The position numbers and the translations under genes were made by a program. The notes beneath the pieces are model-generated. The model saw nothing but the letters and a program-made list of their open reading frames with translations. It had not been told where the DNA came from and searched no databases. Shown one piece after another: positions 5,186 to 7,298 of a stretch of DNA of 32,014 bases (position 1 is its first letter; the number at the start of each line of letters is the position of its first letter). This DNA is from Solirubrobacterales bacterium (GTDB lineage Bacteria; Actinomycetota; Thermoleophilia; Solirubrobacterales; 70-9), in NCBI GenBank assembly GCA_018883025.1, contig VEQW01000006.1, positions 1 through 32,014 on the forward strand. The letters are read 5' to 3'.

Positions 5186-5770
5186 TCAACCCTCGGTCGC
5201 TGGCACCGCCTGGAGCCGGTATCGCATCGCCTTCTCCGAGGCACCGAACTCGGCGCAGAGCGCTGCCAGGTCGTCGTCGAGTGCGACCCGCCGCGCCGCG
5301 ACCAGTGCGGCCGGCATCAGCAGGGCTGCCGCAAAGGCATCTGCCTCCCGCTCCAACTCCGCCCTGGGGTCCTCAACCGGCCCGGGCTCCGCTCCGTCCA
5401 CGACCTCGATCCGTCGACAGAAAACGGTCGGCTCGAGACTGTCCTGGTGGATTACGTAGTGGCCCAGCTCGTGGCAGATCGTGAAACGTTTCCGCCCCTC
5501 CCACTGGCGGGCCTCGGCCGCGTTGACCCAGATCTCCCCCGGTCCGGTCAGGAGCAGTCCGGAAACGTTGGTGCTCCGCTCCTCTTCCAGCCCAGGGGCC
5601 TCGGTCATGTCCTCGACCTCCCGGATCAGGAGACCGAACGTATTCGAGACGATCTTCTCCACCGGGACCGGGAGCTCTTCCCCGTTCCAGATGTAGTCGG
5701 GGACCCCCTCGAGAATCGCATCGGCTCGGGCCTCGACCCAACCTCGGTTCGCTTTGTCTTCGCGGGTCAC
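5186..5770 (-). CDS. ImmA/IrrE family metallo-endopeptidase
   Basis: HELGHYVIHQD zinc site at residues 100-104 plus downstream EREADAFAAALLMP. GTG start overlaps the upstream stop (GTGA). Confidence 0.92.
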   Translation of the reverse strand: MTREDKANRGWVEARADAILEGVPDYIWNGEELPVPVEKIVSNTFGLLIREVEDMTEAPGLEEERSTNVSGLLLTGPGEIWVNAAEARQWEGRKRFTICHELGHYVIHQDSLEPTVFCRRIEVVDGAEPGPVEDPRAELEREADAFAAALLMPAALVAARRVALDDDLAALCAEFGASEKAMRYRLQAVPATEG

Positions 5771-6438
5771 GTCCGATCCGCCTCACGCGAGGTGAACAGG
5801 CGATCGATTTCGTCGGACTCCACCGAAGGACTCCTCATCCCGCCCTCCCCGGAATCCACCAGTCCCAGGTTGAGCGCCTCGACGGAAGGCCTGCGGGCAA
5901 AGGTCGCCCCACCCGCCGGATCGGGCTGGCGTCGGCCGATTGCCTCCCCTGCCTGGCGGAGCGCATCCCGCGATGAATCGAGGATCAGGGCCAGTCTGTC
6001 GAGGACGGTGTCGGTGACCCTCCGTGCGTCGAGCGTCCCCCAGGTCATCCCATGGAAGTAAACCCTCACCTTCTCCACCTGTTCGGGACCTTCGGCGCCG
6101 AGTCCTTCAGCCAGTTCGGCCACCACCGCGTCCCGTTCGAGTTCGCGTTCGGCCATCAGATCGGGGATCAGCTCCGGCCACTCCCCCGAGGGGCAACGGG
6201 ACTCCTCGATGACCTCCCCTACTACCCGTTCCGCCAGCGATCCCCGATAGGCCGCGGGGTCCCACTCCCTGGGCTCCCCATCCTCTTCCACCGGACTCGC
6301 CATCAAGAGGATCTCGATCCGTCGTTCCAGCCGGTCCCGGTCGGGGCCCTCGACCTCCGCCAGGAAAGGAGCCGGATCGGCATCCCCCGACCTCGCCGCG
6401 GCCGCATACCGCTCGAGGAGTTCGTCAACCCTGTCCAT
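5767..6438 (-). CDS. Uncharacterised protein between a sigma factor gene and an ImmA/IrrE peptidase gene; possible anti-sigma or substrate protein
   Basis: ORF from ATG at 6438 (MDRVDELLERYAAAARSGDADPAPFLAEVEG...). Contains KVRVYFHGMTWGTLDARRVTDTVLDRLALIL. Overlaps upstream CDS by 14 nt and downstream CDS by 4 nt. Confidence 0.8.
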   Translation of the reverse strand: MDRVDELLERYAAAARSGDADPAPFLAEVEGPDRDRLERRIEILLMASPVEEDGEPREWDPAAYRGSLAERVVGEVIEESRCPSGEWPELIPDLMAERELERDAVVAELAEGLGAEGPEQVEKVRVYFHGMTWGTLDARRVTDTVLDRLALILDSSRDALRQAGEAIGRRQPDPAGGATFARRPSVEALNLGLVDSGEGGMRSPSVESDEIDRLFTSREADRT

Positions 6439-7111
6439 CAGCGCCCCCACCTTCCCGATCGGCCGTTTCGAGGACATCGACCTCCATCTCCTCGAGGAAG
6501 AGTTCCCTGTTCTTCTTCTTGAACCGGGAGTAGATCGTGTCGACGTTGTCGGTCGTGATGCCTTCCCCTCGGTCGAGTCCCTCGTCCTCGACCATCGTTA
6601 CGACTTCCTGGGCCGAGTATCCCTCAGCCTTGAGGCCGACGATGAAGGCATCCCGCTCACTCTCATCCTCCAGAGCACGATCCCAGAGCAGCCGTAGCTC
6701 CACGGCCTTCTCGATGTCGGTGCCATGGTCGGGGACCACTTCGTAGAGACCCCGCTCCTCACCGACCTCGCTCACCGTCCCGTCGTATGCCTCGATCCTC
6801 GGGGCCCCGTCCCTGGCCCGGAACCAGTCGATGACCCTCCGATCGACGATCGTCTGGACGAACTTGTGGAACTGCGGGGCGACCGCGCCCTCGAAGCGTT
6901 CGACACTCCCGAAGACGTCCTTGAAGGCCTCGGCGACGATGTCCGCTGCCTCCTCGTCGACCGATGTCGTGCCGGCCCTGGCGCAGGATGCCTCGATCCG
7001 ACGGCGCGCCCGATTGAAGAAGATGCCCTCCCACTTGAAGATGAGGACCGCGAGCGCAGAGCGGTACTCGGAGGTCTCGCCGAGATCCCTCGCTTCGACC
7101 ACGTACGCCAT
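6425..7111 (-). CDS. Divergent sigma-70/ECF-type RNA polymerase sigma factor
   Basis: Region 2-like ADIVAEAFKDVFGSVERFEGAVAPQFHKFVQTIVDRRVIDWFRARDG and region 4/HTH-like GYSAQEVVTMVEDEGLDRGEGITTDNVDTIYSRFKKKNRELF. Confidence 0.7.
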   Translation of the reverse strand: MAYVVEARDLGETSEYRSALAVLIFKWEGIFFNRARRRIEASCARAGTTSVDEEAADIVAEAFKDVFGSVERFEGAVAPQFHKFVQTIVDRRVIDWFRARDGAPRIEAYDGTVSEVGEERGLYEVVPDHGTDIEKAVELRLLWDRALEDESERDAFIVGLKAEGYSAQEVVTMVEDEGLDRGEGITTDNVDTIYSRFKKKNRELFLEEMEVDVLETADREGGGADGQG

Positions 7112-7298
7112 GACTTCGGCGTCCTCGAGCGCCGAGAGCTGCTCCTGTGACTTCCTCCTGAAGATGAATTCCCCCTTTCGGCCCCTAAGAGTCGGGCCCT
7201 GGGTCCATTCCTGACGGACGGGAAGAAAAATCCTTCCATCCGGCGCCGGTATTCGACCAGCCCCTCACCGGACCCGCGAGGATAACGGCGGGGTCGGT

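Follow-up and report, generated by a model that had tools for sequence, protein, structure and literature searches.

The stretch of DNA analysed here (the window) comprises 32,014 nucleotides (nt) from a Solirubrobacterales bacterium (contig VEQW01000006.1 of assembly GCA_018883025.1), and our subject is a cassette of three minus-strand genes within it. They encode a predicted sigma factor of the extracytoplasmic function (ECF) type, a protein that we term the middle protein, and an ImmA/IrrE-family metallopeptidase, referred to below as M78 (Table 1). An earlier note on this DNA had described three genes with overlapping ends, and all three open reading frames (ORFs) were found as claimed. 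The longest ORF of the middle gene reaches 6477, and its ATG at 6438 yields a 14-nt overlap with the sigma gene; the GTG start of the M78 gene overlaps the middle gene by 4 nt (GTGA). These overlapping ends back the note's inference of a single operon, and the genes are organised in this way.

Table 1. Features of the sigma/middle protein/M78 cassette, numbered from the first nucleotide of the window.
Feature	Position	Strand	Basis and remarks
ECF-like sigma factor gene	6425..7111	minus	ATG start; Pfam, AlphaFold, Foldseek; probable true start ATC at 7165
Middle protein gene, 223 amino acids (aa)	5767..6438	minus	Proposed anti-sigma factor and protease substrate; alignments, AlphaFold (predicted local distance difference test, pLDDT, 84)
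ImmA/IrrE-family metallopeptidase gene (Peptidase_M78), 194 aa	5186..5770	minus	PF06114, 57 bits; GTG start
HELGH zinc-binding motif of M78, residues 100-104	5459..5473	minus	Sequence and alignment
Cys118 codon of M78 (C-R motif), proposed cysteine switch	5417..5419	minus	Cys-Arg count, CapP alignment
N-terminal helical domain of middle protein, residues 1-66	6241..6438	minus	Confident helices 3-16, 22-26, 32-47; proposed sigma-binding module
XRE (Cro/C1-type) helix-turn-helix (HTH) fold of middle protein, residues 85-168	5935..6186	minus	HTH_31 matches and Foldseek
Arg182 codon of middle protein, in disordered linker	5893..5895	minus	Candidate ImmA/IrrE cleavage site, [FY]-A-R
C-terminal tail helix of middle protein, D-x-[IV]-D-x-L-F, residues 209-217	5788..5814	minus	Alignment and model
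Promoter-like element CGTCAG-N16-CGAC (consensus TGTCAG-N17-GAC)	7191..7216	minus	Upstream alignment; probable autoregulated operon promoter

The three genes travel together. A search with the sigma factor matched 26 of 61 related genomes, and most of the strong matches were followed by a middle gene of about 215 codons and an M78 gene. Of 299 genomes in the class, 78 (57 among the 192 good ones) contain a match to a profile of the middle protein, which found almost nothing in the sampled rest of the phylum; the exception is one clear trio in another family (locus L190). Removal of duplicates left 85 non-redundant middle proteins. A sigma gene lies upstream in 84 of these, by a model partly trained on the same loci (34 of 51 sigma factors independently match region 4 in Pfam), and an M78 gene is adjacent in 79, on the same strand in 64 and on the opposite strand in 15; four of the six middle genes without M78 sit at contig ends. 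Further, divergence is correlated among the three proteins (Mantel r 0.74-0.81; maximum under the null, 0.11). This linkage is far beyond chance, and the conserved neighbourhood in relatives that the earlier note had asked to be checked exists. Both the retention of M78 in the opposite-strand cases and the correlated divergence support a functional trio. Named carriers include metagenome-assembled genomes of Solirubrobacterales and Thermoleophilia, Conexibacter arvalis and Solirubrobacter taibaiensis; the trio is widespread across Thermoleophilia (the class being assigned via named relatives), in soil and freshwater actinobacteria.

On the evidence of its sequence and predicted structure, the product of the first gene is an ECF-type sigma factor. 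The region 2-like and region 4-like motifs on which the earlier note relied are recovered by hidden Markov models: Sigma70_r2 is borderline in the window (23.7 bits, slightly below the cut-off of 24) and matches 17 of 51 family members, and Sigma70_r4_2 is clear in relatives (best E 3e-17). The domain content is thus that of an ECF sigma-70 factor, with regions 2 and 4 and without region 3. The AlphaFold model (pLDDT 84) has two helical domains with a disordered linker (residues 104-130) between them, and its top Foldseek matches in the PDB are ECF sigma factors, namely SigH and SigL of M. tuberculosis and sigmaE of E. coli. The E-values of these matches are modest (about 0.007-0.1, with probabilities of 0.9-1.0; best E 7e-3, probability 0.99), as is to be expected when two domains are arranged differently towards each other. 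In NCBIfam, the best match of the window protein is the type III-E sigma model, at 28.9 bits far under the cut-off of 100. Binding to RNA polymerase and recognition of promoters are indirectly supported by a conserved, apparently autoregulatory promoter-like element, described below.

The N-terminus of this protein is probably about 18 aa longer than the ATG call implies, starting at the ATC at 7165. A homologous reading frame extends upstream of the ATG, and relatives mostly start there with TTG. In the window, this frame reads IFRRKSQEQLSALEDAEV-MAYVVEARD, resembling the relatives' N-terminus of the type MKFRPKDDHELENLSDDDL-VAYLVEARD; both here and in a 96%-identical relative (L003), the ATC follows a Shine-Dalgarno-like GGGGG. 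No ATG, GTG or TTG occupies the homologous start (7163-7165, minus strand), and the string GGGGG-AATTC-ATC points to a rare ATC start. Across relatives, the sigma gene begins with weak initiation codons: TTG in most, and probably ATC in the window and L003.

The third gene product was identified in the earlier note as an ImmA/IrrE peptidase from its HELGHxxxH motif, and this assignment is sound. Its score against PF06114 is well over the cut-off of 22 bits, and its catalytic residues are complete: HExGH, the third histidine and ExEA (H100, E101, H104; E140/E142) are invariant in 17 of 17 M78 sequences. A profile search gave CapP (7t5t) as the closest solved structure (E 6e-13), followed by IrrE. 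Behind the HExxH helix, 66 of 80 M78 proteins of the family have a Cys-Arg pair, as opposed to 1 of 62 other M78 proteins, and Cys118 aligns with the corresponding cysteine of CapP. According to a 2026 paper (PMC13273310), a zinc-coordinating "cysteine switch loop" blocks the active site in VapB52, and reportedly also in CapP, until single-stranded DNA (ssDNA) binds. Certain sublineages (L053-L059, L081, L087, L092), most of which encode M78 on the opposite strand, have no switch cysteine and a different M78 subtype, which gives the impression that one protease gene was exchanged for another in the same adjacent place. Non-catalytic M78-fold domains occur in some regulators, and proteolysis is a prediction here; the M78 protein could be an inactive scaffold or act on an unrelated target, the cluster being a neutral neighbourhood. 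The invariant catalytic residues and an adjacency that is kept across several families, in either orientation of M78, make this very improbable.

The middle protein was called uncharacterised in the earlier note. No known family was matched by it as a whole, but its second half is predicted to adopt an XRE-type HTH fold. The AlphaFold model shows N-terminal helices (1-47), the XRE-type helix set (87-168), a disordered linker and a final helix (210-216). HTH_31 matches 21 of 69 family members (best 4.9e-6), the window protein itself having no Pfam HTH match, and the Foldseek hits are dominated by XRE proteins (C.AhdI, SinR, P22 c2 and two DdrO HTH entries), each of them weak (E about 0.4-2; probability up to 0.97). 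The family thus carries the Cro/C1 HTH domain by which XRE proteins are defined. In unrelated bacteria, its profile also gives weak matches (E as low as 4e-4) to XRE domains whose genes neighbour M78; a sequence search of the PDB with the same profile returned helical-bundle noise only. No protein was found in which two of the three families are fused. This fold is that of known ImmA/IrrE substrates, which supports the middle protein as the substrate of M78.

The linker that follows the XRE fold holds a candidate ImmA/IrrE cut site. Arg182 is invariant (69 of 69 aligned sequences) at a position where the pLDDT is below 50, and a hydrophobic-x-R motif ([FYLM]-x-R type) is present in 60 of 69 linkers, compared with 7.6 after shuffling (maximum 17). 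A single residue conserved inside a disordered segment looks like a protease site. This assignment is supported by the cleavage of the Leu108-Arg109 bond in DdrO (PMC4374696) and by the Phe-Arg motif proposed as the cut site of VapB52 (PMC13273310). Beyond the linker, the tail is conserved (D212 in 65, L214 in 68 and F215 in 67 of 69) and confidently modelled (pLDDT about 86).

Upstream of the sigma gene lies the promoter-like element. It consists of TGTCAG[A] and, at a nearly constant distance behind it, GAC. Most cassettes among L002-L024 and further loci of the order have it, as a rule 39-58 nt ahead of the sigma start; it was not seen in the more distant families sampled (e.g. L056, L061-L080). 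In an anchored alignment of 27 upstream regions of 120 nt, solely the TGTCAG[A] and GAC columns exceed the conservation threshold, and no inverted repeat is conserved. At L005-L023 (e.g. L010, L016, L019), a second conserved block of about CTGACT-N17-TATCTTGG lies upstream of TGTCAG and looks like a housekeeping promoter for the sigma operon or a divergent gene.

The same element recurs elsewhere in the genus, where TGTCAG-N15/16-CGAC is commoner than a reversed control. In its strict form (A after TGTCAG, one spacing), there are about 45 sites against about 10 for the control in 18 genomes of the genus; across 32 further genomes of the family, the counts are 9 and 4. The choice of the 61 sites that we fetched was based largely on sequence (TGTCAG with A or G behind it), not on distance to a gene. 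Counting ORFs of 60 aa or more, the start codon stands at exactly +9 behind 10 of these sites (against an expectation of 0.76), at +10 behind 4, and at +14/15 behind 7 (against an expectation of 1.6). Read from the sequence, this is the geometry of promoters of leaderless or very short-leader transcripts. As the element precedes the sigma factor's own operon, we infer that the cassette sigma factor reads TGTCAG-N17-GAC promoters. An operator of the XRE protein was considered as another identity for the element and judged less likely, because the element is not palindromic, its halves are nearly fixed in spacing and the start codons follow at fixed distances.

The genes behind these sites encode an RNase_T exonuclease (three genomes), an AddB-like protein (two), DUF2130 (two) and, once each, ARPP-1, a VWA protein, a metallo-beta-lactamase, an AAA/DUF5925 protein and an N6-methylase plus AAA. 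At the end of one contig (L265, G004:C42:1-600), the N-terminus of cas9 (TIGR01865, 4.5e-9) begins 15 nt after TGTCAG-N16-CGAC. Two further families recur: 232-aa proteins with a CxxC-type N-terminus and no family match, 9-10 nt after the element in four genomes (L244, L248, L256, L268), and acidic proteins of about 95 aa ending in WIYFESPEWTWQNLCGRSGWLLIDPETIDQYDFVM or similar, 9 nt after it in three (L235, L276, L279). At L255 (G001:C122), two divergent TGTCAG elements stand back to back between the genes for an AAA/DUF5925 ATPase and a 208-aa zinc-ribbon-like protein.

It is moderately probable, in our estimation, that the cassette is a cytoplasmic sigma/anti-sigma switch that is opened by the ImmA/IrrE protease. 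The middle protein would hold the ECF-like sigma factor inactive, probably through the acidic helical domain at its N-terminus, the helix at its C-terminus or both, while the cysteine switch would keep the peptidase latent. Once activated, the peptidase would recognise the XRE-fold half and cleave the invariant [hydrophobic]-x-Arg site in the flexible linker, thereby destroying or separating the inhibitor and freeing the sigma factor. The latter would then transcribe TGTCAG-N17-GAC promoters, including that of its own operon, for positive feedback and a supply of fresh inhibitor with which to reset the system; in related species, it would also drive a few nuclease or DNA-handling, defence-like and unassigned genes. 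We infer the binding of the sigma factor by the middle protein as well as the cleavage of the latter by M78 and its site, and the action of the protease on the XRE protein is the better supported of the two steps. The earlier note had proposed such a release of the sigma factor from its inhibitor, and the evidence supports that proposal in part. A trigger in the form of ssDNA or DNA damage is speculative, by analogy with CapP and PprI.

The main rival is a circuit of the ImmR, DdrO or CapH type, in which the middle protein would be a DNA-binding repressor of the sigma operon, cleavage by M78 would derepress that operon, and the sigma factor would be an unbound downstream output. The XRE fold is what such a circuit calls for, and the described ImmA/IrrE partner substrates DdrO and CapH are DNA-binding repressors. 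However, the 27 aligned upstream regions offer promoter-like positions only, with no inverted repeat to serve as an operator. The middle gene directly follows the sigma gene, often overlapping it, as is usual for anti-sigma factors, and its product has an additional N-terminal domain and tail; we know of no DdrO-like repressor with such an N-terminal domain and a D-x-I-D-x-L-F tail. Further, in one genome (G081, L187:2649-3312), the strand opposite a complete cassette carries a second sigma gene and, directly after it, an ORF of about 77 aa that encodes just the N-terminal domain and has none of the HTH, linker and tail. The occurrence of this domain by itself after another sigma gene suggests, from this one case, that it is the sigma partner. 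The protein is also very acidic, with a net charge of -9 on the window HTH; this argues weakly against a repressor, as the family mean is about 0, and surface charge was judged indecisive as proof against DNA binding. Given the lack of a conserved inverted repeat, the gene order and the extra modules, we favour an anti-sigma factor over a DNA-binding repressor, and consider the repressor circuit rather unlikely. The composite architecture, with three conserved modules, would also suit a dual role, in which the N-terminus binds the sigma factor, the XRE domain binds DNA or RNA polymerase as a co-regulator, and M78 resets the system. The second binding partner is hypothetical, and we regard this arrangement as improbable.

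Several observations weigh against the protease-opened sigma/anti-sigma switch. No curated anti-sigma domain is among the listed matches to Pfam (69 family members) or NCBIfam (window protein), and the XRE domain could still bind DNA. The M78 protein ends at 194 aa without a C-terminal GAF-like domain, its profile alignment spanning the peptidase region of CapP only; because CapP and PprI have this domain, their ssDNA-sensing mode may not apply here. The switch cysteine is absent in the sublineages with a convergent M78. Finally, the promoter excess is clear only in the window's genus, the cassette's own site is the sole convincing promoter match in the window's incomplete genome, and the predicted regulon is functionally mixed.

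Each half of the proposed switch has precedents. The CBASS (cyclic-oligonucleotide-based antiphage signalling system)-associated pair CapH and CapP likewise combines an ImmA/IrrE protease, bearing the aligned switch cysteine, with a neighbouring HTH protein as its substrate; however, CapH is a DNA-binding repressor, there is no sigma factor, the pair is linked to immune operons, and CapP, with 291 aa against the 194 aa of the M78, has a GAF-like domain. PprI/IrrE and DdrO of Deinococcus are also an M78 protease and an XRE-fold partner cut after the HTH at a residue-Arg bond, but DdrO represses through a DNA operator and has no link to a sigma factor, and PprI has a GAF-like domain. In ICEBs1, the ImmA peptidase adjoins the XRE-type partner ImmR, which differs in being the repressor of a mobile element without a sigma factor. 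On the other side stand triads of a sigma factor, its inhibitor and a soluble protease. CalpL-CalpT-CalpS of type III CRISPR (clustered regularly interspaced short palindromic repeats) systems is such a three-gene switch with an ECF sigma factor (PMC11417357), but CalpL is a Lon-SAVED protease that senses cyclic tetra-adenylate (cA4), CalpT is a different anti-sigma factor, and the system is tied to CRISPR. In Csx29-Csx30-CASP-sigma of type III-E CRISPR systems (PMC10028731), a sigma inhibitor is again cleaved by a protease; Csx29 is caspase-like and RNA-guided, and Csx30 did not match the middle protein in the searches done. The cassette protease, being an M78, is neither Lon-SAVED nor TPR-CHAT and so belongs with neither CRISPR system. 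The combination of the two halves was not found in the literature searched, nor was any report of an ImmA/IrrE-controlled sigma factor, the search being of open-licence literature, with most subscription papers outside its scope. With some doubt, we put forward the possibility of a new sigma/anti-sigma class in Thermoleophilia, in which an XRE-fold anti-sigma factor would be destroyed by a cysteine-switched ImmA/IrrE protease upon an intracellular signal, possibly ssDNA, to induce a regulon with nucleases and, in one species, cas9.

The earlier note had taken the position of the cassette beside recD2 as a hint of DNA damage or stress, which we do not uphold. The recD2 gene and a flavin adenine dinucleotide (FAD)-oxidoreductase gene flank the cassette in members of the window's genus alone, and the flanks examined at two loci of that genus (L110 and L112) show no recD2. 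Because their recurrence is so confined, these neighbours are no evidence for function, and we set recD2 aside as ordinary genus-level synteny. A link to DNA damage is possible by another route, namely the similarity to CapP and PprI and the nuclease genes among the predicted targets.

If the proposed switch is real, ImmA/IrrE proteases, which the literature consulted presents chiefly as enzymes that destroy DNA-binding repressors, would have sigma factors under their control as well, and a purely cytoplasmic route of sigma activation would exist outside CRISPR systems. The switch makes exact predictions (the cut site, the switch cysteine, the promoter and the target genes), and cultured hosts of the trio exist in Conexibacter arvalis DSM 23288 and Solirubrobacter taibaiensis KCTC 29222. 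For Thermoleophilia, a class that is genetically little studied, it would provide a testable stress or DNA-damage regulon. The trio thus points to an undescribed way of switching on stress, DNA-handling and perhaps defence genes in these bacteria.
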